From positions 434,001 through 498,000 of the forward strand of contig NZ_OY787470.1 in assembly GCF_963678835.1 (NCBI RefSeq): a stretch of DNA of 64,000 nt, in the 5' to 3' direction. The notes under the pieces are model-generated. The model saw only the letters and a list, made by a program, of their open reading frames with translations, was not told where the DNA came from and ran no database searches. The DNA is from an uncultured Desulfuromonas sp. GTDB lineage: Bacteria > Desulfobacterota > Desulfuromonadia > Desulfuromonadales > Desulfuromonadaceae. The position numbers and the translations under genes are program-made. This document shows positions 1,513 through 26,620 of this stretch, in pieces (the first letter of the stretch is position 1; every line of letters begins with the position of its first letter).

Positions 1513-2904
1513 ATGCAGAGTTTTATTCAGACATCACGAACCGAACCGGTCAAAAGCGAAGTCAGTGAGCGGATTTGCGACTTCGGTGAAATCTATACCC
1601 TCTATACCGCGAAAAAAGTGGCGTTGCAGGCTGAACGCTGTGTGCAATGCGGTGACCCGTTTTGCACCGCCATCGGCTGCCCGTTGAATAATGCCATCCC
1701 GCAATGGTTGCAGGCCATTGCTGAGCATGATCTGGAAAAGGCGTTCCGCCTGTCTAATGAAACCTCCCCGTTTCCCGAGGTGCTTGGTCGGGTGTGTCCC
1801 CAGGCCAACCTGTGTGAAGGGGCCTGTACTCTGGATGACGGCTACGGGGCGATCACCATTGGCGCCATTGAGGCCTCGATTACTGATCTGGCCTTTAAGG
1901 AAGGATTGGAAATTCCGTTTCCCGGCGTGATTCGCGATAAAAAGGTAGCCGTGGTCGGCTCCGGTCCGGCGGGGATGTCCTGTGCCCACTTTCTACTGCG
2001 TGCCGGTATTGAAGTCGAAATGTTCGAACGAGCTTCCAAGCCCGGCGGACTGCTGACCTATGGCATTCCCGGTTTCAAACTGGAAAAAGGCATTGTTGAG
2101 CGACGTTTCAAGATGCTCAAAAGGGCAGGGCTGGTGCTCCGCCTCAACTGTGCGGTTGGCGAAGATATCACATTGCAGGAGTTGCACGATCAGTACGATG
2201 CCGTGTTCCTCGGCACTGGTGCCACCGAGGGTAAGAGTGCCCGTCTCGACCACGAAAACAGCGACCAGGTGTTCTACGCCATGGATTATCTGACCCAGGT
2301 ACAGCAACGCCTTTACGGCCAGGAATGGGATGCGCGGTTCAATGTTGCCGAGCGCAACGTCATTGTTATCGGCGGCGGCGATACGGCCATGGACTGTGTG
2401 CGCACGGCCATTCGTGAGCAGGCCAAGAACGTCACTTGCCTCTACCGCCGTGACCAGACCAACATGCCCGGTAGTGTCAAAGAGTATCGCAATGCCGTGG
2501 AGGAAGGGGTGGAATTCCTGTTCAACGAAACACCCCATGCCATTGTGGTGGATGACAATGGCAAGATTATCGGTGTGGATGCCGTGCGCACTGAACTGGG
2601 CGAGCCCGGTGAAGACGGTCGTCAGCGGGTGCGTGAGATTGACGGCAGCGAGCACTGTGTGGCTGCCGATATCATCATCCTGGCGCTGGGATTTGACGTG
2701 GCGGAAAATGGCGCGCTGGAGACGTTGGGCGTTAAAGCCAATCAATGGCATGAGATTCAGACCGATGCCGAGAGCGGACAAACCGGTAACGCTAAAATTT
2801 TTGCCGGCGGCGATTGCTGTCGCGGTGCTGATTTGGTGGTGACGGCGGCGGCCGATGGACGCAAGGCGGCTATGGCGATTATGGAGCAGTTGCTGGGGGA
2901 ATAA
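1513..2904 (+). CDS. gltD: Glutamate synthase small (beta) subunit
   Basis: A 463-residue NADPH-oxidising subunit that passes electrons through FAD and 4Fe-4S clusters to GltB. The N-terminus carries the Fe-S cysteines CVQCGDPFC and, near residue 95, CPQANLCEGAC. Next come an FAD Rossmann motif VVGSGPAGMSCA (about residue 146) and an NADPH motif VIGGGDTAMDC. Length is normal for GltD. The ATG has an AGGAG ribosome site overlapping the gltB stop region. The gene is followed directly by a repeat array, and no clear terminator hairpin with a T-run was seen. Confidence 0.97.
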   Translation: MQSFIQTSRTEPVKSEVSERICDFGEIYTLYTAKKVALQAERCVQCGDPFCTAIGCPLNNAIPQWLQAIAEHDLEKAFRLSNETSPFPEVLGRVCPQANLCEGACTLDDGYGAITIGAIEASITDLAFKEGLEIPFPGVIRDKKVAVVGSGPAGMSCAHFLLRAGIEVEMFERASKPGGLLTYGIPGFKLEKGIVERRFKMLKRAGLVLRLNCAVGEDITLQELHDQYDAVFLGTGATEGKSARLDHENSDQVFYAMDYLTQVQQRLYGQEWDARFNVAERNVIVIGGGDTAMDCVRTAIREQAKNVTCLYRRDQTNMPGSVKEYRNAVEEGVEFLFNETPHAIVVDDNGKIIGVDAVRTELGEPGEDGRQRVREIDGSEHCVAADIIILALGFDVAENGALETLGVKANQWHEIQTDAESGQTGNAKIFAGGDCCRGADLVVTAAADGRKAAMAIMEQLLGE

Positions 2905-2931
2905 AAATTAGGTTATTTACCGCCAAGAGTT

Positions 2932-3682
2932 TCCTGGCGTGCGGGCGCGGAAGCCCGCGTCACGTGGGTACCACCATTGCGAACGGATGAAGTTCGCTGG
3001 TGCGATTAGCTTCGGATTACGAGCCACTGAAGATCAAAGTCAAGGTCGCCGGGATTCGTCCCGGCAGCCGACATCCTTTTGACTGGCCGCTCAAAAGGAT
3101 GCAAAAACCAGCTTGAACACCTCCTGAACCTGGATTCACCTACACTGTGCCTGTTTCCGTTGTGCGTCACAGATTCGGCTCGCCGCCCTTTAGGTCGGCG
3201 AATCGTGCAACTCATCGTCTGTGGCGTAAAACGTTGATAACCAATTGAAGCTGCACTTTATTTCTTCCGTGGCACCGATCAAACGGGTGGGCAGTGTCCA
3301 CCCTTGCCTGGGTTTGTTGTTGAGCAGCCAAGCCCTCCCGTTCAGCAGCGCCGAACGAAGAAAACGGTCAGCGCGATGGTCGTCGGCAACCTGTTTGAGC
3401 GTCAGCGAGTTTTGCCGACATCGCGATGTTAGTGAACGCAGAGAGGGAACCCGTAAGGGCGCAATGACGGGAGTCGATTTTGCGGTACTTTTGTCGACGC
3501 AAAAGTGCCCCGACGTGCGGGCGCGGAAGCCCGCGTCACGTGGGTACCACCTTCGCGAACGGATGAAGTTCGCCAGAGCGATTCGTTTCGGATTACGAAC
3601 CACTGAAGCTCAAGATCAAAGTCAAGGTCGCCGGGTTTCGTCCCGGCAGCCGACATCCTTTTGACTGGCCGCTCAAAAGGAT
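2932..3682. repeat. 575-bp repeat array I, left part (interrupted by an IS3 element)
   Basis: Non-coding. It holds about 1.3 units of the repeat also found at 6.6-7.8, 18.2-20.6, 22.8-23.05 and 50.35-50.5 kb. The recurring segment GCGGGCGCGGAAGCCCGC begins at 2941 and again at 3517, a 576-bp step. Each unit contains several inverted repeats: the GCGGGC/GCCCGC hairpin, a GCCGGG/CCCGGC hairpin, CATCCTTTTGA/TCAAAAGGATG around an 8-nt loop, and GGTACTTTTG/CAAAAGTGCC around TCGACG. The unit at 3517 breaks at 3682, where the IS3 element begins, and resumes at 6625. Open frames across it are not credible genes. Confidence 0.9.
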
Positions 3683-3756
3683 TGTAGTGGTCTACTAAAC
3701 TTGGACACCCACAAAGGTGGTAACATCCACCTAAACGAGAAAGGGGTCTAAGGACT

Positions 3757-4059
3757 ATGGGAAGAAAAATATTCACAAATGAATTCAAGGTTGAATGTGC
3801 CAGCCTTGTTTTGGATCAGGGATACAGTGTCCCAGATGCTGCCCGAGTTATGGATGTTGGAGAAACGGCCATGCGTCGTTGGGTAAAGCAGCTCAAACAG
3901 GAACGGGCTGGGACGACACCGGAAACTCCAGCCCTTACAGAGGACAAAAAGCGTATCCAGGAACTCGAAGCCCATATTCGTCGTCTGGAGAAAGAGAAGC
4001 AAATCCTAAAAAAGGCTACCGCTCTCTTAATGTCGGAAGACAAGCTTCGTTTGAGTTGA
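3757..4059 (+). CDS. IS3-family transposase OrfA
   Basis: A 100-residue DNA-binding subunit. The N-terminal half is a helix-turn-helix (YSVPDAARVMDVGETAMRRWVKQ) and the C-terminal half a leucine-zipper-like coiled coil (IQELEAHIRRLEKEKQIL) used for multimerisation. The ATG has an AAGGA ribosome site. Near the 3' end sits a heptamer A AAA AAG that would allow a -1 frameshift into orfB, giving the OrfAB transposase. The frame is intact, but its partner is split by the inner element, so transposition from this copy is unlikely. Confidence 0.93.
   Translation: MGRKIFTNEFKVECASLVLDQGYSVPDAARVMDVGETAMRRWVKQLKQERAGTTPETPALTEDKKRIQELEAHIRRLEKEKQILKKATALLMSEDKLRLS
4008..4014 (+). other. Programmed -1 frameshift heptamer A AAA AAG
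   Basis: In the orfA frame the codons read CTA AAA AAG. The heptamer is in the right phase to shift ribosomes into the orfB frame, which then reads through to the insertion point at 4126. This is the canonical IS3-family slip signal; usage was not tested. Confidence 0.75.
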
Positions 4060-4126
4060 TCAGTACATTCAGAGAGCATGACTGCGTTTGTATCCTTTGC
4101 CGTCTTTTTGATGTTTCGCCTTCTAG
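4014..4126 (+). pseudogene. IS3 OrfB, 5' fragment before the inner insertion
   Basis: In the -1 frame relative to orfA this stretch encodes the start of OrfB, ending FDVSPSS at the insertion point. Joining base 4126 to 5827 restores the frame exactly (SSYYAYLNRRAH), which shows the gene was intact until the IS1380-type element inserted. Confidence 0.85.
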
Positions 4127-4220
4127 CCCGAATTTCTCACCAATAAATAGAATAAGGCTGTATTTCGTGGCATAAATGTAGTGAGACCAATCACTTACAT
4201 AGCGCGAAAGGAACAGCCTT

Positions 4221-5606
4221 ATGAAAACAGAGTGTAACACAGAGCAACTTGAGTTTCATAGCTTTGGTCGGCGTGAAATTATTGGTCAATTCGATGGCAT
4301 CAAGATCAGTTCCGATGGCGGTGGCATCCTTCTTCGAGAGGTCGAAAAACGCACCGGCATATTGCGTCGTTTGAGTCAATGCTTCACGGACTATCGCAAT
4401 CCAGAGATGATTACCCACAGCCTCGAATCCTTGATTAGCCAGCGCATCATGGCGCTGGCATTAGGCTACGAAGACCTCAACGACCATGATGTTTTGCGCC
4501 ATGATGCCTTGCTCAGTGTTTTAAGTGGTAAGTCCAATGGAAAAATGGGAGCCGGGAAAAGCACTCTCAACCGTCTTGAACTGACACCTGCGACGGGCTC
4601 AAGTTCATCGCGCTACAAGAAGATTGTCGCCAATAGTGACGCTATGGACGAGCTTTTGATTGATTTCTTTCAGAAGTCATTCAGTGAAGTTCCAGAAGAG
4701 ATCGTCTTGGATGTAGACGCTACAGATGATCTAATCCACGGTACTCAGCAGGGGCGTTTTTATCATGGCTATTATCGAAGCTACTGCTATTTGCCGCTGT
4801 ATATTTTTTGTGGGGAACAGCTGTTGTGCGCCCGCTTGCGTACGGCGGATCAGGATGGTGCCGCCGGAACAAAAGAAGAACTGGAACGCATTGTCCGACG
4901 CATTCGCCAATCATGGCCGGATGTTCGCATCGTTGTGCGTGGAGACAGTGGTTTTTGTCGCGACGAGATTATGACTTGGTGCGAGCACGAAGAAAACCGC
5001 GTGGACTATGTCTTGGGATTGGCGAAAAACTCTCGCTTGAAGACACTGCTAGAAGAGGAGATGGAACAGGCGAAACAAGAGCATGAGCAGACAGAAAAAG
5101 CCGCACGGGTATTCAAAGACTTTCACTACCAGACCCGCAATAGCTGGAGCCGGTCCAGGCGCGTTGTGGGCAAAGCGGAATATTTGTCCAAGGGAGAAAA
5201 TCCCCGCTTTGTCGTAACGACACTGAGCGAGGAAAAAGCGGATGCCCGCAGCTTGTATGAAGACATTTACTGCGCCCGCGGCGACATGGAAAATCGGATC
5301 AAGGAACAACAACTGGCCCTGTTTGCCGACCGGACGTCCTGTCATGAAATGCGTGCCAACCAATTGCGCCTGTATTTTTCCAGCTTTGCCTATGTTCTGT
5401 TACAAACTCTGCGGCGCATCGGATTAAAAGAAACGGAATTGGCCAAAGCACAGAGCGAAACAATCCGTCTGAAATTACTGAAGATTGGCACCCGGATCAA
5501 AATCAGCGTGCGCAAGATCTGGCTGTCATTTTCAGAAAGCTATCCCTATGCGGACTTGCTGCGCCAAGTTTTGGGGAATCTTCAAAAAATACCGATACGC
5601 TGTTAA
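4221..5606 (+). CDS. IS1380-family transposase
   Basis: A 461-residue DDE transposase with no frameshift. The N-terminal part (SSDGGGILLREVEKRTG) is typical of the family. Likely catalytic acidic residues lie in LDVDATDD (about 169), VVRGDSGFCRDE (about 240) and the family signature YCARGDMENRIKEQ (about 352-365). The ATG follows GCGAAAGGA. A 28-bp perfect palindrome downstream may end transcription. Family assignment is strong from the signature motifs. Confidence 0.93.
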   Translation: MKTECNTEQLEFHSFGRREIIGQFDGIKISSDGGGILLREVEKRTGILRRLSQCFTDYRNPEMITHSLESLISQRIMALALGYEDLNDHDVLRHDALLSVLSGKSNGKMGAGKSTLNRLELTPATGSSSSRYKKIVANSDAMDELLIDFFQKSFSEVPEEIVLDVDATDDLIHGTQQGRFYHGYYRSYCYLPLYIFCGEQLLCARLRTADQDGAAGTKEELERIVRRIRQSWPDVRIVVRGDSGFCRDEIMTWCEHEENRVDYVLGLAKNSRLKTLLEEEMEQAKQEHEQTEKAARVFKDFHYQTRNSWSRSRRVVGKAEYLSKGENPRFVVTTLSEEKADARSLYEDIYCARGDMENRIKEQQLALFADRTSCHEMRANQLRLYFSSFAYVLLQTLRRIGLKETELAKAQSETIRLKLLKIGTRIKISVRKIWLSFSESYPYADLLRQVLGNLQKIPIRC

Positions 5607-7916: not shown

Positions 7917-8831
7917 CTACAGCATCTCCGGCGTAAACGCCACCACCTCATCAATGGTTGTACTGTCCGTCAGCAGCATGGCCAAGCGGTCAATCCCTAA
8001 GGCAATCCCTGCCGATGGCGGCAGATGTTCCAGTTCCTGTAAAAACGGCTCTGGCAAAGGTGACGGCGCTTTGCCCATCTGCTCACGCAGCGCCTGCTCG
8101 GCAACGAATCGCTGGCGTTGTTCGGCCGGATCATTCAGTTCACTAAACGCATTGGCCAGTTCCATCCCGGCGATGTACAGCTCAAAGCGTTCGGCATGGT
8201 CGGGATCTTCGGGACACAGTCGGGCCAGGGCGGCCATGTCAGCCGGATAATGGGTGATGAAGGTTGGCTGGTGCTTACCGAGGTTGGGCTCGATGTGCTG
8301 AGTGTAAATTTCATCAAAGCACGTGTTGTCAATTGCTTCAGTCAGTGACATGGGTGCGTAACGGTCAAATGCGTCACTGAGTGTCAGACGTTCAAAAGGG
8401 TCTTGAAGCGTGATCGACGCCCCTTGATAGCTGAGTGTTCCTTGTGGGCACAGAGCGCGCAGCAGTTGCTCGCAGTCATTCATCAGGTCGGTGTAATCGG
8501 ACTCTGCGCGATACCATTCCAGCATGGTGAATTCGCCAAGATGGCGTTGCCCACGCTCTTCAGCACGCCAACAGTGGCAGAGTTGAAAAATCCGCTCATA
8601 GCCGGCGGCCAGCAGCCGTTTCATGCACAGTTCGGGGGAGGTGTGCAAAACTTGTTCGCCGCTGGTGACCGGATCAATATGCGCTTCCGGGGCATTGCAG
8701 GGGATGCGGTACGGGGTGTCCACCTCAAGAAACGCCTGCGCGACGAAAAACGCCCGGATGGTTTGCATCATCCGGGCGCGCTCGTTTAAGCGGTGTTTCT
8801 TTTTCAGCAGACCCCAGTTTGGGTCGCTCAT
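7917..8831 (-). CDS. epmA: EF-P lysyltransferase (lysyl-tRNA synthetase paralogue)
   Basis: A 304-residue stand-alone class II catalytic core without the anticodon-binding domain of LysRS, as in EpmA/GenX/PoxA. Motif 2 region FQLCHCWRAEERGQRHLGEFTMLEWYR and motif 3 GIALGIDRLAMLL are present. EpmA activates (R)-beta-lysine and attaches it to a lysine of elongation factor P. The gene follows efp on the same strand after 3 bp, so the modifier and its substrate are co-transcribed. The EpmB aminomutase that supplies beta-lysine is not in the window. Confidence 0.94.
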   Translation of the reverse strand: MSDPNWGLLKKKHRLNERARMMQTIRAFFVAQAFLEVDTPYRIPCNAPEAHIDPVTSGEQVLHTSPELCMKRLLAAGYERIFQLCHCWRAEERGQRHLGEFTMLEWYRAESDYTDLMNDCEQLLRALCPQGTLSYQGASITLQDPFERLTLSDAFDRYAPMSLTEAIDNTCFDEIYTQHIEPNLGKHQPTFITHYPADMAALARLCPEDPDHAERFELYIAGMELANAFSELNDPAEQRQRFVAEQALREQMGKAPSPLPEPFLQELEHLPPSAGIALGIDRLAMLLTDSTTIDEVVAFTPEML

Positions 8832-8834
8832 GAT

Positions 8835-9398
8835 CTATTCCTTGACGCGGGTCACGTATTCACCGGTACGGGTGTCGATCTGGATCAGAATGCCTTCTTC
8901 AACAAAGGAAGGAACCTGCAGGTTGTATCCGGTTTCGACCGTGGCCGGTTTGTTGTTACCCGCGGCGGTGTCGCCCTTTACCCATGGCTCGGCCATAGTG
9001 ACGCGCAGAGTAACAAAGTTGGGCAGTGTGATGCCGATGCCCAGTTCGCCGAACATGAGAATTTTGACTTCCATGTTGTCGACCAGAAAGTAACGATCAT
9101 CCCCCAGCGTTTCTTCAGTAAGGGAAATCTGCTCGTAGGATTTGTTGTCCATAAACACGTAACCTGTCTCATCCTGATACAGGTACTGCATGTCGCGCTC
9201 TTCCAGGGGGGCGGGCTCAAAGTTCTCACCGCTGCGGTAGGTGCGGTCAAACAAGGCGCCGGTAATCATGTTGCGCAATTTGCATTTATACAGAGCCTGG
9301 CCTTTGCCGGGCTTGGTGAAGTCGAAACCGGCAATGACATGAGGCTCACCGTCGATCATCAATTTAAGACCTTTTTTCAGGTCAGAACAGGTATACAT
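8835..9398 (-). CDS. efp: Translation elongation factor P
   Basis: A 187-residue protein of normal EF-P length with the three beta-barrel domains. It relieves ribosome stalling at polyproline. The loop FTKPGKGQA puts Lys32 at the modification position, in line with the adjacent lysyltransferase gene. The C-terminal signature is present (VETGYNLQVPSFVEEGILIQIDTRTGEYVTRV). The start ATG has an AAGGAG site (9404-9409). Confidence 0.97.
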   Translation of the reverse strand: MYTCSDLKKGLKLMIDGEPHVIAGFDFTKPGKGQALYKCKLRNMITGALFDRTYRSGENFEPAPLEERDMQYLYQDETGYVFMDNKSYEQISLTEETLGDDRYFLVDNMEVKILMFGELGIGITLPNFVTLRVTMAEPWVKGDTAAGNNKPATVETGYNLQVPSFVEEGILIQIDTRTGEYVTRVKE

Positions 9399-9509
9399 GT
9401 CAGTTGTACTCCTTGTATGGTTTTTTTCTCAATGAAAATGGCCCACATTTAATCATACCGGCTGCAAATTGTCATGGGAAAACCACCCATTAGCAAATAT
9501 CATCAAAGC

Positions 9510-9538
9510 AAAAAGCCACCCGGGCGGGGTGGCTTTTT
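9510..9538. terminator. Bidirectional rho-independent terminator
   Basis: AAAAAGCCACC and GGTGGCTTTTT form an 11-bp stem round a 7-nt loop, with A/T runs on both sides. It would stop leftward read-through from the acetate-permease gene before the efp promoter. Confidence 0.8.
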
Positions 9539-9815
9539 GAAAATTCGGCGTTATGTGGTTTGGTATGGGTATGGGTTGTTTTGCAATAACGCCTGACGAT
9601 GCCGATTGCTTTGGTAGAGCAATTCACGTTGTTCCCGGCGCGGTTGGTGTGGGTGCGGCGGGAGTGTGGGTAACGTGGGGGTACCGTCATGTTTTAATGA
9701 TATTAGAATGCAGAGGATATGCCAAGAATTTCTTTTTGCAGTAAAAAACAAACAAGGTTCTGTTTTTAAAAGGAAAATCTCGTTTGTCGCTTCATTCCAG
9801 AGTGTCGTCGTTCGA

Positions 9816-9845
9816 CAAGATATTTGCATGCCTGCAAATATCTTG
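9816..9845. repeat. 13-bp perfect inverted repeat
   Basis: CAAGATATTTGCA, loop TGCC, then TGCAAATATCTTG. It is AT-rich without a T-run, so it looks more like a protein-binding palindrome or RNA hairpin than a terminator. Function unknown. Confidence 0.6.
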
Positions 9846-9909
9846 GAACACATTGTTCCGTTGTGAGAAACGGTGTGAGAAAAAGGCGCAACATTGAGCG
9901 GTTAAAACA

Positions 9910-16294: not shown

Positions 16295-18133
16295 ATGAAC
16301 TCCATTCACGATCTTGATCTGTCTCTGATTGCCACTCGCCCCGGCGTCTATCTGATGTCCGGCGAAGATGGCCGAGTGTTGTATGTCGGCAAAGCACGCA
16401 ATCTGCGGGCCCGTTTGCGCAACTATGTGCGCGGTGAAGACACGCGTGCCCATGTTCAGTTTTTATTGCGCCGGGTGGTGCAGGTGGAAACCATTGTCAC
16501 CGACACGGAAAAAGAGGCGCTGATCCTTGAAAACACTCTGATCAAGAAACATAAACCGCGCTACAACATTAATTTACGCGACGATAAAACCTACGTGTCG
16601 CTACGCATTGATATCACCGAACCGTTTCCCGGCATTCAGATTGTCCGTCGGGTCAAGCGGGATGGAGCCCTGTATTTCGGGCCTTATTCCTCCGCCGGAG
16701 CCTTAAAGGAAACCCTTAAGGAGTTGTATCGGATCTTTCCGTTGCGTCATCACCGCTGGCAGCAGTGCCGACGTCGTGATCGGCCCTGCCTGTTTTATCA
16801 GATCGGTCAGTGCAGTGCGCCCTGTCATGGCAAGATCAGTCAGGAGGATTATCGCAAACTGGTCGATACAGTCATTGCCTTCCTCTCCGGTCGTCATGAT
16901 GATGTCATTAACATGCTGCGCGACAAGATGGCTCAGGCCGCTCAAGAGATGAATTACGAAGAGGCCGCGCGGTTGCGTGACCAGATTCGGGCCATGGAGC
17001 AGACCATTGAGCAACAGAAAGTGGTCAGTGCCGACGGGACCGATAGCGATGTTGTCGGGCTGCATCGCGAAGGCGGCGAAGTGGAAGTGTGCCTGCTGTT
17101 TGTCCGTGCCGGTCGACTGGTGGGGCGGCGCAGTTATCTTTTAAGCTGGACCCTGGACGAAGATGAACTTCTGGCCGGATTTCTTCAGCAATACTACGGT
17201 CGCGATACGCTGATTCCGCCGAAGGTGCTGCTGCCGTTGTTGCCCAGCAGTGCCGAGACGTTACAGTTGTGGCTCAGTGAGCGGCGCGGCAGTAAAGTGC
17301 ATCTGCAGGTGCCCAAGCGCGGGGCACGCAGTGAGTTGCTCGAACTGGCTAATAAAAATGCCACAGAAAGCTATCGTGAGCGAGGTGACCGCCGTGATGC
17401 CCGAACCGCGGTTCTTGAAGATATTCAGAAGTCGTTGGGGCTGTCCCGGCTGCCGCAACGGATGGAGTGTTACGATATCTCCAATGTTCAGGGTCAGTAC
17501 AGTGTTGGTAGTATGGTCGTCACCACCGATGGTGAACCCGATAAAGCCGCGTACCGCCATTATCGCATTAAAACCGTGGAAGGCGCTGATGACTTTGCCT
17601 CATTGCATGAGGTCCTGACCCGCCGATTGACGCGTGGCATCGAAGAGCAGGATCTGCCCGATATGGTGCTGATCGATGGTGGTAAAGGGCAGTTGGCCAT
17701 GGTGGACGATGTTTTGACCACTCTCAATCTTCATTCCTGCATCGACTTGGTGTCCATTGCCAAAAGCCGGGTGAAGCGCAATGTGCGCGGCCATGCTGTT
17801 GAGCGCAGCGAGGAGCGATTCTTTCGCCCCGGGCGCAAAAATCCCGTTGTGTTACGCCAGGGATCGCCAGCGCTGTTTATGCTTGAACGGCTGCGGGACG
17901 AAGCGCATCGCTTTGCCATTACCCACCATCGTAAATTACGCAATAAAGCAACCCTTGAATCGGAGCTGGATAAAATACCCGGTGTCGGTCCGGGACGGCG
18001 TAAGGCGTTGCTTAAATCGTGTGGCAGTGTGGCCAAGGTGAAAAAAGCATCGCTGGAAGAGTTGCAGCAGGTTCCAGGGGTTCCGGACAATGTGGCTCAA
18101 GCCGTGTACGATTATTTCCATTCTGTTGAATGA
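16295..18133 (+). CDS. uvrC: Excinuclease ABC subunit C
   Basis: A 612-residue protein of normal UvrC length that makes both incisions in nucleotide excision repair. Domains in order: GIY-YIG nuclease (PGVYLMSGEDGRVLYVGKARNLRARL), a Cys-bearing linker (RPCLFYQIGQCSAPCHGKIS), a UVR helix pair, the RNase H-like endonuclease (DISNVQG and DMVLIDGGKGQL) and C-terminal helix-hairpin-helix motifs (IPGVGPGRRKALL). ATG 16295 has a GGAAGG site; the frame extends 20 codons upstream but without support. Confidence 0.97.
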   Translation: MNSIHDLDLSLIATRPGVYLMSGEDGRVLYVGKARNLRARLRNYVRGEDTRAHVQFLLRRVVQVETIVTDTEKEALILENTLIKKHKPRYNINLRDDKTYVSLRIDITEPFPGIQIVRRVKRDGALYFGPYSSAGALKETLKELYRIFPLRHHRWQQCRRRDRPCLFYQIGQCSAPCHGKISQEDYRKLVDTVIAFLSGRHDDVINMLRDKMAQAAQEMNYEEAARLRDQIRAMEQTIEQQKVVSADGTDSDVVGLHREGGEVEVCLLFVRAGRLVGRRSYLLSWTLDEDELLAGFLQQYYGRDTLIPPKVLLPLLPSSAETLQLWLSERRGSKVHLQVPKRGARSELLELANKNATESYRERGDRRDARTAVLEDIQKSLGLSRLPQRMECYDISNVQGQYSVGSMVVTTDGEPDKAAYRHYRIKTVEGADDFASLHEVLTRRLTRGIEEQDLPDMVLIDGGKGQLAMVDDVLTTLNLHSCIDLVSIAKSRVKRNVRGHAVERSEERFFRPGRKNPVVLRQGSPALFMLERLRDEAHRFAITHHRKLRNKATLESELDKIPGVGPGRRKALLKSCGSVAKVKKASLEELQQVPGVPDNVAQAVYDYFHSVE

Positions 18134-18199
18134 TGGAAAAGTTGTTAAAATCAGATCCGCCACGACGCGCCGGTCGCACCATTCTTCACGTTTCGCAGT

Positions 18200-20643
18200 T
18201 CAGCTCCACCGTTCAATAGCGCCGAACGCAATGAACGCTAGCTCAATCTGTTGCGCAGAACGATCAAGATCAAAGTCAAGGTCGCCGGGTTTCATCCCGG
18301 CAGCCGACATACTTTTGACTTGCCGCTCAAAAGGATGCAAAAACCAGCTTGAACACCTCCTGAACCTGGATCAACCGACAATGAGTCTGTTTCCGTCATG
18401 CTTCACAGATTCGGCTCGCCGCCCTTTAGGTCGACGAATCATGTAATTCATCAGCTCTGGCGTAAAACGTTGACAACATTTTACGCCTTTTTCTACCTCT
18501 TCCGTGGCACCGGTTAAACGGGTGGGCAGTGCCCATCCTGCCATGGTTTGTTATTTAGCAACCCAGCCCTCCCGTTCAGCAGCACCGAACGCAATGAACG
18601 TCAGCGCGATGGTTGTCGGCAACCTGTCTGAGCGTCAGCGAGTTTTGCCGACATTGCGATGTAAGAGAATGGAGTGAGGGAACCCGCAGGGTGCAATGAC
18701 GGGAGTCGATTTTGCTCCCCTTTTGTCGACGCAAAAGGGGACCGACGGGCGGGCGCGGAAGCCCGCGTCACGTGGGCACCAACTATGATAACGGATGAAG
18801 TTTGCCGGTGCGATTCGTTTCGTATTACGAACCACTTAAGGTCAAGGTCAAAGTCAAGACCGCCGGGTTTCGTCCCGGCAGCCGACATCCTTTTGACTGG
18901 CCGCTCAAAAGGATGCAAAAACCAGCTGAACACCTCCTGACCCTCAGATCAACCGACACTGTGTCTGTTTCCGACGTGCTTCACGGATCCGGCTCGCCGC
19001 CCTTTAGGTCGACGAATCGTGCAACTCATCAGCTTTGGCGTAAAACGTTGATAACAATCTTCAGTCGCGCTCTATTTCTGGTGTGGCACCAATCAAACGG
19101 GTGGGACAGTGCCCACCCTTGCGGCAGAGTGTAATTGAGCAGCCAAGCCCTCCCGTTCAGCAGCATCGAACGCAATGAACGTCAGCGCGATGGTTGTCGG
19201 CAACCTGTTTGAGCGGTAGCGAGTTTTGCCGACATCGCGGTGTAAGAGAATGGAGTGAGGGAACCCGCAGGGCGCAATGACGGGAGTCGATTTTGCGGTA
19301 CTTTTGTCGACGCAAAAGTACCCCGACGGGCGGGCGCGGAAGCCCGCGTCACGTGGGTACCACCTTCGCAAACGGATGACGTTCGCTGGTGCGATTCGTT
19401 TCGGATGACGAACCACTGAAGGTCAAAGTCAAGACCGCCGGGTTTCGTCCCGGCAGCCGACATCCTTTTGACTGGCCGCTCAAAAGGATGCAAAAACCAG
19501 CTGAACTTCTCCTGACCCTCAGATCAACCGACAATGGGTCTGTTTCCGTAATGCTTCACAGATTCGGCTCGCCGCCCTTTAGGTCGACGAATCGTGCAAC
19601 TCATCATCTTTGGCGTAAACGTTGATAACCTTTTACGTCTCACTCTATTTCTTCCGTGGTCCCGCTCAAATGGGTGGGACGGTGCCCACCCTTGCGGCAG
19701 AGTGTAATTTAGCTGCCAAGTCCTCCCGTTCAGCAGCACCGAACGCAATGAACGTCAGCGCGATGGTTGTCGGCAACCTGTCTGAGCGTCAGCGAGTTTT
19801 GCCGACATCGCGGTGTAAGAGAATGGAGTGAGGGAACCCGCAGGGTGCAATGACGGGAGTCGATTTTGCTCCCCTTTTGTCGACGCAAAAGGGGACCGAC
19901 GGGCGGGCGCGGAAGCCCGCGTCACGTGGGCACCAACTATGATAACGGATGAAGTTTGCCGGTGCGATTCGTTTCGTATTACGAACCACTTAAGGTCAAG
20001 GTCACAGTCAAGACCGCCGGGTTTCGTCCCGGCAACCGACACCCTTTTGACTGGCCGCTCAAAAGGATGCAAAAACCAGCTGAACTTCTCCTGACCCTCA
20101 GATCAACCGACAATGGGTCTGTTTCCGTAATGCGTCACAGATTCGGCTCGCCGCCCTTTAGGTCGACGAATCGTGCAACTCATCATCTTTGGCGTAAACG
20201 TTGATAACCTTTTACGTTTCACTCTATTTCTTCCGTGGCTCCGCTCAAACGGGTGGGACAGTGCCCACCCTTGCGGCAGAGTGTAATTGAGCAGCCAAGC
20301 CCTCCCGTTCAGCAGCACCGAACGCAATGAACGTCAGCGCGATGGTTGTCGGCAACCTGTTTGAGCGGTAGCGAGTTTTGCCGACATCGCGGTGTAAGAG
20401 AATGGAGTGAGGGAACCCACAGGGTGCAATGACGGGAGTCGATTTTGCTCCCCTTTTGTCGACGCAAAAGGGGACCGACGGGCGGGCGCGGAAGCCCGCG
20501 TCATGTGGGTACCACCATCGCGGACGGATGAAGTTTGCCAAAGCGATCCGTTGCGTATTACGAACCACTGAAGATCAAAGATAAGGTCGCCGGGTTTCGT
20601 CTTGGCAGCCGACATCCTTTTGACTGGCCGCTCAAAAGTATGC
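18200..20643. repeat. 575-bp repeat array II, left part
   Basis: About four head-to-tail copies of the same unit as array I. The CCCGTTCAGCAG marker falls at 18572, 19152, 19725 and 20304, and the GCGGGCGCGG hairpin at 18749, 19330, 19903 and 20482; steps are 573-581 bp. The first copy (18203-18570) lacks an internal segment. Copies differ in one hairpin: GGTACTTTTG/CAAAAGTACC at about 19297 versus TCCCCTTTTG/CAAAAGGGGA at about 18715, 19869 and 20449. The array stops at 20643, next to the islet. Confidence 0.92.
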
Positions 20644-20774
20644 AAAAGCTCCCTTTAACTGTTTTTTTTACATGTCAAGTGTTGACGGTCCATGATGCGC
20701 CCCATAACAACTTAATTTTCAAAACTGTTTTGACGCTGACTAACAGTTGATATATAAACACTGTTAATAACTGT

Positions 20775-21044
20775 TCAGCTGGCGGCACAGTGTTTAATAG
20801 ACTCAACACGCGGGCCACGACCATACGCTGGATAGCGGGTAGGGAAAACCTCAGACACATCCAACTTTATCGCCGTGGCAATTGCACGTTGAACACGATC
20901 AGAGGTGGACTTTCCCAAAATAACCCGATGCACATGGGCGGCGGAAACTTCACAGGTACGGGCAACCTCAGCCTGTGATGTTCCGTACCGAATCATGGCA
21001 ATTTTGATTTCGGCAAGGCTATAGTCCTGCTCCGTAAAACTCAT
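20775..21044 (-). CDS. Ner/Nlp-like helix-turn-helix regulator
   Basis: An 89-residue DNA-binding protein. The helix-turn-helix spans about residues 20-45 (GTSQAEVARTCEVSAAHVHRVILG), and the tail IATAIKLDVSEVFPTRYP resembles the WPSRY ending of phage Mu Ner. The ATG has a GAAAGGAG site. It is divergent from the XRE gene with 120 bp between, the layout of a transposable-phage control region. It probably represses one or both promoters; no other phage gene is nearby. Confidence 0.75.
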   Translation of the reverse strand: MSFTEQDYSLAEIKIAMIRYGTSQAEVARTCEVSAAHVHRVILGKSTSDRVQRAIATAIKLDVSEVFPTRYPAYGRGPRVESIKHCAAS

Positions 21045-21119
21045 GACGTACTCCTTTCGAGGTTTGTTTATTTGTTGCGCTTTTTTTCTGCGCTTTTTTA
21101 TTAACTTAAAATAACCATA

Positions 21120-21135
21120 GTGCAGGTATCTGCAC
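21120..21135. promoter_or_regulatory. Operator-like palindrome between the divergent regulators
   Basis: GTGCAG, spacer GTAT, CTGCAC is a perfect 6-bp inverted repeat 30 bp before the XRE start. It sits just after an AT-rich TTAAAATAAC promoter-like stretch. A half-site GTGCAG recurs at 21151, and a near copy lies inside the gene at 21295. Confidence 0.6.
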
Positions 21136-21164
21136 TTGTCAATGGAAAAGGTGCAGATATTTTC

Positions 21165-21572
21165 ATGATCGGAGAAAGACTTCGCAATGAGAGAAAACGG
21201 CTGGGTATGACACAGCCAAAGTTTGCTGAGGCTGCTGGGGTATCAAAGCGAACTCTTATCGACTGGGAAAAAGGAGCGACATTTCCTACGGCAATGCAGC
21301 TATCTGCACTTTTTAATGTTGGCGTAGATATTCAGTATGTTGTTGCCGGAAGGCGTGAATCACAGAACCAGCGATCTCAGGTTTTGAATGGTGATGGCAA
21401 CATCCAATTCGGCAATGTTTCAGTTAATGGAAGAGGTCGTTTTTTATCGGGTGAAAAGCATCCAGGCATAACCGATAAAGAGGTAGTAGAAGTCGGGAGA
21501 GTTGCCGAAGCGATTGAAGAATATGTTTCTCAAAAGGTGGCAAAGAAGATTATCGATGAATTGAAAAAATGA
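21165..21572 (+). CDS. XRE-family transcriptional regulator
   Basis: A 135-residue protein with an N-terminal helix-turn-helix (RLRNERKRLGMTQPKFAEAAGVSKRTLIDWEKGATFPTA), a middle GDGNIQFGNVSVNG segment of the kind that follows phage-repressor HTHs, and a helical tail (EVVEVGRVAEAIEEYVSQKVAKKIIDELKK) that may oligomerise. A GTG at 21120 would add 15 residues but would lie in the operator, so ATG 21165 is preferred. It probably autoregulates through the GTGCAG-N4-CTGCAC site. Confidence 0.78.
   Translation: MIGERLRNERKRLGMTQPKFAEAAGVSKRTLIDWEKGATFPTAMQLSALFNVGVDIQYVVAGRRESQNQRSQVLNGDGNIQFGNVSVNGRGRFLSGEKHPGITDKEVVEVGRVAEAIEEYVSQKVAKKIIDELKK
21295..21308. promoter_or_regulatory. Second TGCAG-N4-CTGCA palindrome, inside the XRE gene
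   Basis: TGCAG, CTAT, CTGCA repeats the arms of the site at 21121-21134 with one spacer change. The surrounding 25 bases are also similar, so it may be an internal operator or a chance codon match (MQLSALF). Confidence 0.35.
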
Positions 21573-21597
21573 AATGATATTTAATTGAGGAGGGCCA

Positions 21598-21684
21598 GTG
21601 AAAAAAAAAGCTCGCCAGAGGATAAAAGGATCAAAAAATATTCAAATAGGAGATGTGAACCTAAATTTTTTAAATAAAACCTAG
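21598..21684 (+). CDS. Putative 28-residue basic peptide
   Basis: GTG start with a strong GAGGAGG site 6 bp before it, 25 bp after the XRE stop. The first half is very basic (MKKKARQRIKGS). The second half, KNIQIGDVNLNF, echoes the GNIQFGNVSVN segment of the upstream regulator. This similarity and the ribosome site make translation plausible, perhaps as a partner or antagonist of the regulator. No family is recognised. Confidence 0.45.
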   Translation: MKKKARQRIKGSKNIQIGDVNLNFLNKT

Positions 21685-21831
21685 GCCGATAAATGTCTAA
21701 CATCTGTTCAAAAAAAGATTCACATAATACTCTCGTGTAGCCTTGTAGCCACGACATTTCCCAACTACACGATAAATCAGGCGTCATGTATTGTTGTCAT
21801 AACCTGCGCAACAATCATTCTCGGTATAGCT

Positions 21832-22137
21832 ATGTGGCGATCCGAAACCAAATTTAAACACCTACGCATGACAACCTCGGCAATGCTTATACTCTCTTTA
21901 TCGACAGGATGCAGCGGTCCTATGCTGGCAAAAATTCAAGACAACCATATTCAGCAACTTGCTGCAAAATACAAAACAGGAACCATTGATGGCTTCTGTT
22001 TTATGGGGTTCGGCTTAGAAGACATAAACATCAACAAAGCCGCTGAACAAGGCGGGATAAAAAATATTCACTTCATAGACTCAGCCCGCAGTTACGGACT
22101 GATAAGCTACGCCAAGGTAACGGTTTTTGGAAAATAA
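21832..22137 (+). CDS. TRL-like family lipoprotein
   Basis: A 101-residue protein. The N-terminal part is a lipoprotein signal: positively charged start, hydrophobic MLILSLSTG, then the lipid-acceptor Cys (LSTGC). The rest matches the TRL-like pattern: a short segment (GFCFMGFGLEDININKAAEQGGIKNIHFID) followed by a second strand (YGLISYAKVTVFGK). These small exported proteins often lie in accessory regions; function is unknown. A start at 21868 is also possible. Confidence 0.7.
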   Translation: MWRSETKFKHLRMTTSAMLILSLSTGCSGPMLAKIQDNHIQQLAAKYKTGTIDGFCFMGFGLEDININKAAEQGGIKNIHFIDSARSYGLISYAKVTVFGK

Positions 22138-22145
22138 CAGGAGGC

Positions 22146-22715
22146 ATGATGATTGAAAAGAGCAAACTTCCACATTATATAACTTATATTTTCTGTTCCA
22201 TTTTCCTCCTCATGGGGATCGTTTACGTTTCAGGCCAAGACCTTGATGGTAAAAAATTAACTGACGACGAAAAGAGCCTCATAAGCTTAATTTTGAATTC
22301 TAAAAAAGCTAAAAATGGCGAGAAATTATTTCGCAATATTCTTGCTGCACACCCATTCATTGACCAATATTACTACCAACCCAGCATCTTTGGAGAGGGA
22401 ACTGAAAAACCGAAACTAAGTATCTCGCTACCGGCTGGAGTCTGGGTCAATCTAACACCATCCCAGCAAGAAATGATTGAAGCATATGTGGCCAGCGAGA
22501 TACTTACAGTTTGGCGGACCCCTTTCAAATATTCCGTAGTCAAAGCAGACGCCCCCGGAGCCTTCATTACAAAGAAAAACGTAAAAAATATGTCGCTTTA
22601 TGACTGGGTAATTATCGAAGGGAAATTAACAAATAACGGAAGGGATATATTGTCAGATAAAACAATTTCAACCGGCGAAAAATGGCAAGGCCAAGACCTA
22701 TCAAAATACTTTTGA
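22146..22715 (+). CDS. Unknown membrane-anchored protein
   Basis: A 189-residue protein of no recognised family. It has an AGGAGGC site, two possible ATG codons (22146, 22149) and one N-terminal hydrophobic helix (YITYIFCSIFLLMGIVYVS), probably a membrane anchor or signal. The rest is soluble and would lie outside the membrane. It is 8 bp after the TRL-like gene and likely co-transcribed. Codon use is AT-rich like the rest of the islet. Confidence 0.7.
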   Translation: MMIEKSKLPHYITYIFCSIFLLMGIVYVSGQDLDGKKLTDDEKSLISLILNSKKAKNGEKLFRNILAAHPFIDQYYYQPSIFGEGTEKPKLSISLPAGVWVNLTPSQQEMIEAYVASEILTVWRTPFKYSVVKADAPGAFITKKNVKNMSLYDWVIIEGKLTNNGRDILSDKTISTGEKWQGQDLSKYF

Positions 22716-22811
22716 AAACACACCAAAAAATAATCCATTCAAGGCAAACGTAAATCAACGTAAACCTCAATTATCGCAATAATGCCCTATCCATAATCGT
22801 CCCCCCCCTCA

Positions 22812-23050
22812 AAAAGCCAGCTTGAACACCTCCTGGCCCTCAGATTAACCGACAATGCATCTGTTTCCGTGATGCTTTACGGATTCGGCTCGCCGCCCTT
22901 TAGGTCGGAGAATCGTGCAACTCATCGCCTCTGACGTAAAACGTTGATGACAGTTTGGCGCTGCTCTCTATTTTTTTCGTGGCACCGACCTAACGGGTGG
23001 GCAGTGCCCACCCTACGACAGAGTGTTATTTAGCTCCCGAGCTCTCCTCT
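22812..23050. repeat. 575-bp repeat array II, remainder of the unit split by the islet
   Basis: Resumes the consensus at AAAAAGCCAGCTTGAACACC and continues through the GGCTCGCCGCCCTTTAGG segment and the GTGGGC/GCCCAC hairpin, then ends near TTTAGCTCCCGAGCTCTCC. It fits onto the copy that stops at 20643, so together they make one interrupted unit. Confidence 0.85.
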
Positions 23051-23078
23051 ATCAAAGTGGAAGTGGTTCACAAACAAA

Positions 23079-23110
23079 AAAGCCCCTGCAGAAATCTCTG
23101 CAGGGGCTTT
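23079..23110. terminator. Terminator after the cytochrome gene
   Basis: AAAGCCCCTGCAGA, loop AATC, TCTGCAGGGGCTTT: a perfect 14-bp stem followed on the minus strand by TTTTGTTTG. It ends the ext-like operon. Confidence 0.88.
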
Positions 23111-23131
23111 AAAGTGTTGCTTTAGCGCCTC

Positions 23132-24493
23132 TTAGCGCGGGCTACCAAGACCGTCAGATTTGATCGTGATAGTTTCTTCCCACTCTTTCCACAATTGAGC
23201 AGAAGTCCGCTTGTTGCCAAAAGGCAGGTACCACAGCTCAACGGTGACGTCCATCTCGCGCTCGAGAGTTTCTCGTACCATTTTGCCGGCAGCATTTTTC
23301 ACGTCATCCGTGGGGAAGAAGATGTCGAAGCGCTCTTCAACTTCTTTTCCTGGAGGCAGGCAGGTGTCTTCGATGATGCCGCTCTTCTCGTAAGGTCCAC
23401 GACCCATGATGTCGCTGCGACCGAATTGCTGAGGCGTCGGCATGTAGATGATGTCTTTGGTGAAAATTTCCCCTTCTTCTTCTGTTGTTGCACGTACCGA
23501 CAGAACCAGTCGGTTAGGGGTCGGTCAGCCATCAGGGATGGCGTGGCCGGCACGGTTGGTCATTTTCACTTTCAGGACGGTTTTCGGAGTGAGTTTGCTG
23601 CCATCACGCCAGCGGGTGGCAAAGGCTTCGACGTCGAAGTCAACAGCCATTTCCTGCATGGTGGGATCGCTGTAGCTCAGGATCTTGTGACCCAGGCCGG
23701 ATTTCTCCATGTGACATTCCTGACAACGCTCGTGGCCACCTTCAGCGGTGTAAGACCACAGGTAGCTGCCGTACAGGGTGGCGCACTGGGTGGGGTTTTC
23801 CAGCTCGAAGTTGGGGCCGAGACCGTGGCACTGACCACAGAAGATCGACTCGTTCATGATCGGGCTGACTTTCATCTTGGTGAAGTGCTCGTCTTCGTGC
23901 TCTCCTTCGTTGAAACCATACACGGTATCGCTTTGCGGATAACCGTCGGTCCACTTGTGGGTGATGGCCATGCGGTTGTGGCAGATCAGACAGTTGATGT
24001 TGAGGGCCAGCAGAGTTTCCTCGTACTTGGCGCGCTCTTCTGTTTTACCGGCTTTGGCGGCATCGTACCAATCGTACAGGGTGTGAACCAGCTCAACGGC
24101 AACGCTGTCTTCGGCGTCAGCCAATTGCGGCAGGTGACACTTGGCGCAGCCCATCAGGTGCTCAACCTTAACGTCTTCCGGACCGTTAACGCCGGAGTAC
24201 GCCCAGGACATGAAACCGTTTTTCATGGCGGTGATCATGGTGGCAGCGGTGCGGCCGGTGCCGTACATGGGACGGGCGTGGGGAGATGCCGCCCAGTCGT
24301 CGTGAATCTCTTCGTGGCAATCAATGCAGGCGGTCGAGTCGTACATATCGATCAGCTCTGCCAGGGTTTTGGCTTTGCCTTTGGTGGCTGCGATGGTGCC
24401 GTCACGACCAACGCCGGCGCCAATGGCGAAGACGCAGGTGGCGCTGAGCAGCACGATCAGCAAAGAAATGCTGATGTTTTTAAATTGATTCAT
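23132..24493 (-). CDS. extKL: Five-heme cytochrome c, ExtKL-like, with in-frame UGA (probable selenocysteine)
   Basis: A signal peptide (to about residue 23) precedes five CXXCH heme sites: CIDCH, CAKCH, CLICH, CGQCH and CQECH. The frame then meets a TGA (23525-23527) after GHAIPDG and continues in the same frame as PTPNRLVLSVRATTEEE for another 130 residues to a TAA, 453 codons in all. The downstream part is clean coding sequence with no frame change, and a hairpin begins at the UGA itself. I therefore read the UGA as selenocysteine, in place of a cysteine. Gene order (porin, small periplasmic protein, this cytochrome) matches extI-J-KL of Geobacter, linked to selenite/tellurite reduction. 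A nonsense mutation remains the alternative. Confidence 0.8.
23496..23525 (-). promoter_or_regulatory. SECIS-like hairpin immediately after the in-frame UGA
   Basis: In the mRNA, ACCGAC (starting with the A of UGA) pairs with GUCGGU. Inside, AACC pairs with GGUU round a GACU loop whose first base is G. Position and shape fit a bacterial selenocysteine insertion element, though the stem is short and the apical loop is nearer the UGA than usual. Confidence 0.55.
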
Positions 24494-24520
24494 TGTAATA
24501 TCCTATAGATGTGATTAAAA

Positions 24521-24548
24521 GAGACCCGCATCGAAAGATGCGGGTCTC
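24521..24548 (-). terminator. Hairpin between extJ and extKL (attenuator or partial terminator)
   Basis: GAGACCCGCATC, tetraloop, and the exact complement form a 12-bp GC-rich stem. On the coding strand it is followed by TTTTAATC. It lies inside the operon, 27 bp after the extJ stop and 27 bp before the extKL start, so it could lower cytochrome expression relative to the porin. Confidence 0.7.
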
Positions 24549-24574
24549 AAGGTCAAGCTATGATTGCGAAAGGC

Positions 24575-24808
24575 TTAGCAGCCAGTCAGCATATCGCTGC
24601 CGCCGGAAGGAGCGGAAGCAGCACCTTTTTCAATGTCCATCTCAACTTTGTCGCCTTTAGCAACGGCTTTAGCGTCAGAGCGGGAAACTTCTACAGTTAC
24701 TTTGCTGCCGCGTACTTTTACAACTTCGCCTTTAATACTGGCGAAAGCAGCGCAGCTCAGGCCACCGATAAATGCCGCAGCAGCCATCAAAACGATCATT
24801 TTTTTCAT
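24575..24808 (-). CDS. extJ: Small exported protein, ExtJ-like
   Basis: A 77-residue protein with a signal peptide (MKKMIVLMAAAAFIGGLSCAAFA) and a short beta-rich domain (IKGEVVKVRGSKVTVEVSRSDAKAVAKGDKVEMDIEKG), ending in Gly/Ser and a final Cys. Size and place between the porin and the cytochrome match ExtJ. Biochemical role unknown. AAGGAG ribosome site. The gene name rests on context more than on motif. Confidence 0.65.
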   Translation of the reverse strand: MKKMIVLMAAAAFIGGLSCAAFASIKGEVVKVRGSKVTVEVSRSDAKAVAKGDKVEMDIEKGAASAPSGGSDMLTGC

Positions 24809-24853
24809 GTTGCTTCTCCTTAAGTAATTGAAATAAAACCTGGAAGTTTTGGC

Positions 24854-26620
24854 TTAAAAGAACGCTTCCATGGTCAGGTAAACTTGGTCCATGCTGTCGA
24901 TCGGAGCAAAGAACTGGGCCTTGAGAGGATCGCTCAGGTCATCAACGTCAGCAGGAGCACCCAGCCAGTTGCCACTGCCGGTGTACTCGTACTCGTAGTG
25001 CTGGTAGCCGAGACGCATGAAGGCTTTGGTTTTGCTGCTGAGCAGGTTGCCAACAGGCAGGTCCCAGATCAGGTAAGCTTCACCAACGTGACCGCGGGTT
25101 GCCAGTTTGGCTTGGGTCATGTCGTCGTGGGCCGGAGTCATGGAGATCCAGTTCTTGGTGCCGTAGTTGTACTCAAGACCGAATTTCAGACCGTAGTCAT
25201 CCATGTCGTAGCGGATACCGCCGTAGATGCAGTAACCGTCTTTCTGGCCGGGATCTTCCCACCAGGAACCGAGCAGGGTGGAACCCATTTCGTCAACACC
25301 ATCAGGATCTGTACGGCTCCAACCACCTGCGATGAAGTAGTTGAGGTCTGCGGCTTTGTCCATGTAGACGGTAGAGATGTGGTAGATGTCACCAAGATTT
25401 TCTTGATCCAGGGTGCCGTTGCCTTCAACAACGCCGTAAGCTTCCAGCGGGTTAACGAAGGTAACGCCATCGGGAACGTTGATGATGTTGGCAGCCAGGA
25501 ACGCCTGGATGTTCATGAAGCGGGGACCTTTGTTGATGATGTCCCAGCTCAGGCCACCGAAGTCCATGTCGTCCAGTTCGTTGCTGGTTTCGGTCGGGCC
25601 TGCTTCAAAACCACGGCCATAGCAAAAACGGATTTTGCTGTAACCCATGAATTCGAAGGGATTGTTGAATACGGCACCCAGAGTGGCACCGTCAAAGGCG
25701 TAGTCCATGAAGTTAATCGGAGTTGCCATACGCTTGCCGGTACCCATGCGCAGGTGCGCCGGGGGACCGTCAGTGGTCGGGCGACGACCAACAGAGAACC
25801 AGATCGGCAGATCCGCGATGCCGGTCCAGTTGATGTAAGCACGGTCAACACGGACAATGCTGTCGGAAGGTTGACGGGTAGTCGCACCGTCCATCTCATT
25901 GAACTGGTTCATGAAGTAGGGGCCATTGGAGGTCGGGTTAGACTGCATACCCCAAGCCTTGTACATGGCCAAGCGGCCTTTGAACTCCATTTGATCAGAG
26001 ATCTTGGCTTTCATGCCGAGGCGGAAACGGTTGGTGTAGAGAATGTCATTCTCGTAGTTGTTCTTGGGAGTCATGGTGTAACCTTCGGTTACGCCAGCAG
26101 CCTGAACGTTAGCCAGAGCGGTCGGGAACGCGGCATCAAATGCAGGAGTTCCAGGCATAACGCCTGACATCATGAGCCCCATTTGAGCCAATGATGCAGG
26201 AAGATTTTCCATCATCGCTTTACGCTCGTCGGCAGAGTAGGTGCTCATCAGCCCCAGAATGCTTTGTACATCATAGCCCGTAACGGTTTTCATGTCACCA
26301 ACGGCACTGGCGATGTCTCCTGCACTCCAGAACGCTTTGGTGTCGGTATCGCTGTAGTCCATGCGGAAGCGGTAGTCGCCGAAGAACTCAAAGCGGCTGT
26401 GCTCGTCCCATTTTTCAGCGCTGGTTTCCAGCAGCTCAACGGAATCGGCATTGTCATAGGTTGTGTCTTGAACTTCGTTCAGTTGCTCCTGCAGATCGCT
26501 CAGTTGCTTGGTCAGCATGTCGATCTGACGGGCGAGATCTGCTGTCGAGGGTGCTGCAAATGCGCCTGCGGGCAGGAGCATCAGAGCGACCAGGATCAGA
26601 CCTAGTGTTCTTTTCACCAT
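24854..26620 (-). CDS. extI: Outer-membrane porin of the DUF3373/ExtI type
   Basis: A 588-residue exported protein: signal peptide to about residue 22, a coiled-coil segment (TADLARQIDMLTKQLSDLQEQLNEVQD), then a long beta-barrel-like region rich in aromatic residues and ending in a C-terminal Phe (YLTMEAFF), as outer-membrane proteins do. In Geobacter, ExtI is a porin-like protein needed for selenite and tellurite uptake/reduction. Here it heads a three-gene set with the cytochrome. The rhodanese-type extH seen upstream in Geobacter is absent here. Good GGAGG site. Confidence 0.75.
   Translation of the reverse strand: MVKRTLGLILVALMLLPAGAFAAPSTADLARQIDMLTKQLSDLQEQLNEVQDTTYDNADSVELLETSAEKWDEHSRFEFFGDYRFRMDYSDTDTKAFWSAGDIASAVGDMKTVTGYDVQSILGLMSTYSADERKAMMENLPASLAQMGLMMSGVMPGTPAFDAAFPTALANVQAAGVTEGYTMTPKNNYENDILYTNRFRLGMKAKISDQMEFKGRLAMYKAWGMQSNPTSNGPYFMNQFNEMDGATTRQPSDSIVRVDRAYINWTGIADLPIWFSVGRRPTTDGPPAHLRMGTGKRMATPINFMDYAFDGATLGAVFNNPFEFMGYSKIRFCYGRGFEAGPTETSNELDDMDFGGLSWDIINKGPRFMNIQAFLAANIINVPDGVTFVNPLEAYGVVEGNGTLDQENLGDIYHISTVYMDKAADLNYFIAGGWSRTDPDGVDEMGSTLLGSWWEDPGQKDGYCIYGGIRYDMDDYGLKFGLEYNYGTKNWISMTPAHDDMTQAKLATRGHVGEAYLIWDLPVGNLLSSKTKAFMRLGYQHYEYEYTGSGNWLGAPADVDDLSDPLKAQFFAPIDSMDQVYLTMEAFF

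Follow-up and report, generated by a model that had tools for sequence, protein, structure and literature searches.

The earliest prediction of the ExtKL family that was found is that of Fujita et al. 2007 (PMC1914089). The available passages of that paper give the in-frame stops of the family as exclusively TGA, report a failure to identify any downstream SECIS, and hold that the family would lack homologues without selenocysteine (Sec). In the accessible sections of the 2018 ExtI paper, ExtKL is a proposed selenoprotein, and a possible part in selenite reduction is cited from a preliminary study (PMC5877670); those of the 2018 conduit paper note that a TGA separates ExtK and ExtL (PMC6148476). 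A 2026 review, in the portion available, names ExtKL (NF040886) as one of the selenoprotein families (PMC13188914). Among selenoproteome papers, the excerpts of one list a 'cytochrome c family protein' (PMC9312934), and the passages found by term in three others (PMC1794560, PMC2398784 and PMC12013277) name no cytochrome. The family is also represented among solved structures. A profile of 63 relatives, searched against the PDB, returned two distinct sequences named 'Multiheme cytochrome c selenoprotein (MccSep)' at 640 bits. These entries (9WT8, 9WT9, 9WTA, 9WTB and 9WTC) match profile positions 8-425 of 427 and belong to the same family as the protein described below; the residue deposited at the site in question is X in 9WT8, 9WTA and 9WTB, and Ala in 9WT9 and 9WTC, one name reading U325A. 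A literature search for the solved MccSep, or for Sec together with multiheme cytochromes, covered few subscription journals and returned nothing on the solved protein.

The extKL gene and its product

The gene for a pentaheme c-type cytochrome selenoprotein, extKL, lies on the minus strand (nt 23132-24493) of the window, the 64-kb stretch of DNA analysed here, and was identified by its reading frame, its match to NF040886 and its MccSep relatives in the PDB. Direct reading places the start ATG at nt 24493 and the final stop at nt 23132-23134, giving a product of 453 residues when the internal UGA is read through. The N-terminus appears signal-like by eye. Residues 13-445 score 601.7 bits (profile 5-423 of 423) with the NCBIfam model NF040886, 'multiheme c-type cytochrome (seleno)protein ExtKL', whose cut-off is 250. 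Five CXXCH heme motifs are present, at residues 56-60 (nt 24314-24328), 116-120 (nt 24134-24148), 168-172 (nt 23978-23992), 219-223 (nt 23825-23839) and 257-261 (nt 23711-23725), all on the minus strand, and the two Cys and the His of each are invariant in all 63 rows of an alignment of relatives. That alignment (A1) was drawn from 81 distinct sequences after removal of truncated rows, near-duplicates and one row with extra heme motifs. His72 and His269 are likewise invariant (63/63), as are an extra cysteine, Cys237 (nt 23783-23785, minus strand), and His317 (nt 23543-23545, minus strand). Across the 64 kb, no other frame carries three or more CXXCH motifs.

A single in-frame TGA had been reported to split this frame at nt 23525-23527 (minus strand), and direct reading confirms it. 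The UGA is codon 323, lies 3' of all five heme motifs, and would place Sec323 in the motif GHAIPDG-U-PTPNR, six residues after His317. The combination of five CXXCH with GHxIPDG-U, a motif as seen here and not a curated rule, is thus found in one protein. Mechanical ORF calling divides the gene into a frame of 322 aa (nt 23525-24493) and one of 103 aa that begins at a later ATG (nt 23132-23443). The first-pass annotation had concluded that standard annotation would miss the gene; this is out of date, as NCBI now has a dedicated selenoprotein model. Its identification of an ExtKL-like selenoprotein holds, on the NF040886 match, the MccSep relatives, the presence of selABCD, and a UGA that is conserved, with some Cys. 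The extKL gene of the window is a further copy of an already named and catalogued selenoprotein family.

Decoding of the UGA codon

Taken together, the frame, the Sec machinery, the conservation of the UGA, the RNA constraint 3' of it, the Cys replacements and the family match make it almost certain, as judged from sequence, that a single exported pentaheme cytochrome is the product of extKL, with SelB and tRNA-Sec inserting Sec at UGA-323 under the direction of a short hairpin. The genome (4,525,000 bases in 2 contigs) carries selA, selB and selC, which the first-pass annotation had proposed to look for, as well as selD, each above its curated cut-off (611, 365, 71 and 369 bits for selA, selB, selC and selD, respectively). 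The selD, selB and selA genes adjoin one another on contig C1 (nt 1497890-1502190), and selC is at nt 1543300-1543391 of the same contig; two matches exceeded the tRNA-Sec cut-off, and this is the stronger one. ARAGORN found no tRNA in the 64-kb window, so selC is located elsewhere in the genome. The selD gene (L198, genome G000, C1:1497890-1498807) itself carries one in-frame TGA, and is probably a selenoprotein gene as well. Among genomes with a family match, selB was found in 64 of 67, a count that includes G170, where the match is under the cut-off, and does not cover G050 or the genome that contains the window, both of which have selB. The three without a detected selB are G073 (96% complete), G106 (78%) and G248 (76%). 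As most genomes of the order have selB in any case (115/136), its co-occurrence with extKL adds little and was dropped as an argument.

Within the order, 30 of 136 genomes gave an above-cut-off family match, with 34 matches in total, and 33 of these have a TGA in frame, in one case together with a TAG; the remaining match stops at profile position 235, short of the Sec site. A sample of the phylum gave 51 above-cut-off matches in 40 of 395 genomes, with one TGA in 44, no stop in six (one being cut off before the site) and a TAA in one. Two genomes, G000 and G046, belong to both sets. When the residue at the site was compared across homologues, as had been suggested, it proved to be encoded by TGA in 58 of the 63 aligned rows and to be Cys in three. 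The last two have Ile or Val. A residue that is neither Cys nor Sec had been regarded as counting against a selenoprotein, but both rows come from tandem paralogue pairs in one family of the phylum (f50) and do not refute the Sec reading; their occurrence shows that the fold tolerates loss of the residue. Two loci (L098, nt 2056-4759, and L195) carry such paired non-Sec ExtKL paralogues; in one member PDS is followed by Ile or Val, and in the next PDG is followed by Cys. Three genomes with a Cys form (G162, G412 and G456) have a Sec copy on another contig as well, so that the Cys form there is an additional paralogue. Genome G336 has non-Sec copies only, and for one of these the contig ends before the site is reached.

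Synonymous codons are also constrained here. The codons just 3' of the UGA have the highest mean conservation of all the scored 13-codon stretches of the gene, and no other stretch is as conserved, either in the group that shares the SECIS type of the window (0/243) or in the other group (0/57). Some single codons elsewhere in extKL are fixed within the window's SECIS group too.

Three other explanations of the UGA were weighed. It is very improbable that translation really ends at this codon, with the second ORF (nt 23132-23443, 103 aa) forming a separate, adjacent gene. Frames interrupted by a single stop, flanked by 300 or more open codons upstream and 120 or more downstream, occur at three places in the window (TGA 23525, TAA 40424 and TAG 1993), so that frame geometry alone is weak and non-decisive evidence for readthrough, and in the available text of Fujita et al. 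(PMC1914089) 'a highly conserved operon' was retained as a possibility. However, protein-level conservation (for example PTPNRLVLS) is seen between the UGA and the later ATG, homologues with Cys are encoded by one frame across the site, the deposited sequences of the solved relatives span it, and the codons at the UGA are under constraint. Readthrough with some other residue, such as Trp, deserves even less credence. No support for it was found, whereas the Sec machinery and a SECIS-type hairpin are both present, and the non-Sec homologues show Cys (five distinct loci) or Ile or Val (three) but never Trp. Least credible of all is a sequencing error or pseudogene mutation, in favour of which there is nothing beyond the stop being there, while the UGA is found in both copies of the gene in this genome and in 33 of the 34 above-cut-off matches of the order.

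Proposed SECIS hairpins in two registers

The bacterial SECIS (bSECIS) model, as given in the accessible part of the 2026 review (PMC13188914), has a loop of 3-9 nt with a G in its first two positions, a stem of 4-16 bp, a UGA-to-loop distance of 16-37 nt and an energy of at most -7.5 kcal/mol. A hairpin at nt 23496-23514 (minus strand; ACCGAC-UGGUUCU-GUCGGU), here called type A, agrees with this model in every respect and is the proposed SECIS of Sec decoding in extKL. It has a 6-bp stem, a 7-nt loop (nt 23502-23508) with G at loop position 2, and a UGA-to-loop distance of 16 nt; its energy is -9.1 kcal/mol by fold and -8.1 kcal/mol as the bare hairpin evaluated alone. Synonymous recodings of the stretch gave an equally stable SECIS-like hairpin in only 35 of 5000 cases. 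All six pairs are kept in 30/30 distinct sequences of this type, and none is changed on both sides, which makes the stem invariant and without covariation. A scan of the window with Rfam at gathering thresholds gave no match. A permissive scan (nt 18000-24600) gave two weak sub-threshold matches, over the 3' end of extKL and the hairpin downstream of it, which were taken as chance.

The same stretch can also fold into a longer hairpin that begins at the A of the UGA (nt 23496-23525, minus strand), in which the ACCGAC/GUCGGU stem is joined by AACC/GGUU pairs. This was the structure noted in the first-pass annotation. It is indeed there, and the 48 nt beginning with the UGA have their lowest energy in this fold (-11.5 kcal/mol, versus -9.1 for the shorter hairpin), which speaks for it as the functional SECIS. 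Its apical loop starts 13 nt after the UGA (counted by hand from the fold), too near when set against the 16-37 nt of the model, and among distinct 40-nt type-A sequences its outer stem is broken in 3/27 and its inner stem in 2/27, while the shorter stem is kept in 27/27. The longer form is therefore an unlikely candidate, and the nested hairpin at nt 23496-23514 is preferred as the element that fits.

Across the family, 127 fragments following a Sec codon were collected, from which 120 distinct 45-nt sequences were tested. Thirty of these are of type A. The other 90, type B, form a bulged stem at positions 19-24/30-36 (counting the U of the UGA as 0), with the loop 22 nt after the UGA. In type B, 98.3% of cells are paired, and three pairs are changed on both sides (7 cells). 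None of 500 shuffles was as good as this stem on any of three measures, and registers slid along the sequence reach at most 66.9% pairing; one of them has 6 doubly changed cells against 7 in type B, though only 66.9% of its cells are paired. Both-side changes occur in L136, L085, L153, L173, L111 and L112, among others, and the compensatory pair in L136 is synonymous on both sides. Four of the 90 sequences (L073, L077, L081 and L144) break two or three pairs.

A complete type-A stem occurs in none of 87 distinct 40-nt type-B sequences, and the four core type-B pairs occur in 4 of 27 distinct 40-nt type-A sequences, although type-A sequences laid on the type-B stem still have 76.1% of cells paired. 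The fixed codons differ accordingly in position, being 327-332 in 21/21 type-A rows, while codons 330, 331, 333 and 334 stand out in type B. Neither stem is complete in any of seven distinct non-Sec fragments, a number that is a lower bound, the Cys homologue L097 not being among them; in one of the seven a weak type-B stem is possible (-1.5), along with a 4-bp candidate (-0.3). Type-B fragments fold weakly, with a mean energy of -4.9 kcal/mol and an uninterrupted stem reaching -7.5 kcal/mol in 1/90, and for this reason the type-B hairpin fails the published energy rule. A scan for uninterrupted stems found a bSECIS-like hairpin in only 22 of the 90 type-B sequences.

A maximum-likelihood tree of the 63 proteins requires a single change to type A, which is nested among type-B rows. 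Support for this single origin is low (57/74, and 58% of 200 bootstrap trees), and the program warns of long branches. Type B is kept in most other lineages, and is also found within the window's order, in genome G026, which lies in a distant branch. It seems reasonably likely that the SECIS register has shifted within the family, with the type-B helix at 22 nt lost in the lineage of the window and an invariant hairpin at 16 nt found in its place, the Sec codon being unmoved and the local protein sequence little changed. A single relocation is favoured, rather than shown, by these data. No account of two SECIS registers was found in the literature searched. The two registers offer a testable case of SECIS relocation and, if the interpretation is true, naturally paired versions in which to study how a change of SECIS position is tolerated or followed by SelB.

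Protein model, gene surroundings and related systems

The whole-protein model (mean pLDDT 91.7) consists largely of helices up to about residue 283 and of strands from residue 284 on. Sec323 is placed by the model in a loop between strands 300-313 and 328-337. One exported cytochrome would thus combine an N-terminal five-heme part with a C-terminal beta-sandwich. Decoding of UGA-323 by SelB and tRNA-Sec would be directed by the hairpin with its loop 16 nt downstream, and the GHxIPDGU loop of the beta-sandwich would bring the Sec to the heme part as a redox-active residue, so that electrons may move, in either direction, between the hemes and a Sec-containing site. The invariant His317 may ligate a heme, as a candidate distal ligand, and the invariant Cys237 may pair with the Sec. 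The role in metalloid redox chemistry that the first-pass annotation suggested for the Sec is a proposal from the literature, in which selenite would be the substrate. The Cys and Ile/Val paralogues are natural variants for asking what role selenium plays beside five hemes.

The minus strand carries, in order, genes for a DUF3373 protein, an extJ-like protein and ExtKL. The DUF3373 protein (588 aa, nt 24854-26620; PF11853, 419.5 bits) is encoded where Geobacter has extI, the gene for an outer-membrane porin. The small secreted extJ-like protein (77 aa, nt 24575-24808, minus strand), directly upstream of extKL, was recognised by its position and by relatives in the same place in neighbours; it matches no Pfam family at cut-off. 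A gene with glutamate-synthase-type domains lies beside the extKL unit of the window. By eye, two perfect hairpins are seen, one between extJ and extKL (nt 24521-24548, 12-bp arms) and one just after extKL (nt 23079-23110, 14-bp arms), the latter looking like a terminator. Nearby, at nt 18262-20647 and 22812-23047, lies a repeat of about 580 bp (example unit nt 18860-19440) that is dispersed and in many cases arranged head to tail; it has 187 matches in the 4.5-Mb genome and occurs in nine of ten genomes of the genus, its own included (four or fewer matches in three); it gave no Rfam match.

A second copy of the extJ-extKL unit (nt 23069-24838) lies near 894-896 kb of contig C1, with 96.8% identity over 1776 bp. 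The matching segment at the second site is L049 nt 8124-9896. This copy lies beside genes recognised by eye as apparent ATP-synthase genes, and its extKL carries the UGA too. Within the genus, genomes G027, G034 and G035 also carry two copies, and the genes flanking them are exchanged in G027. The extKL identity is 94.9-99.3% between copies within a genome and 83.7-95.9% between species. Because copies within a genome are more alike than those of different species, copying between the two sites is suggested, as if by recombination or gene conversion.

What is new here is the probable location of the SECIS and its difference between bacterial groups, which are modest additions to a known family; the two gaps of the 2007 prediction, a SECIS and a non-Sec homologue, are both filled here by sequence. 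Among other described cytochromes, the best Foldseek match to the model, in a structure library extending to April 2026, is the pentaheme cytochrome c552 of Thermochromatium tepidum (PDB 5ZE8; E 4e-14, TM 0.54/0.62). The same protein is found by sequence profile (E 7.9e-18) at 19% identity, and is not described as a selenoprotein in the search outputs. The small pentaheme cytochromes (sPHC) of cable bacteria are structurally homologous to ExtKL and, in one strain, have a two-gene structure, according to the available passages of the paper describing them (PMC11976967), from the main text of which the words 'selenocysteine' and 'selenoprotein' are absent. The closest parallel to the window is ExtKL of Geobacter sulfurreducens (GSU2937 and GSU2936), which has five CXXCH motifs, a gene likewise split by UGA, and a small extJ ahead of it. 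In Geobacter the gene stands within extHIJKLMNOPQS, as given in the accessible part of PMC5877670, whereas in the window it is accompanied by the extJ-like and DUF3373 genes, in a unit that occurs twice in the genome.
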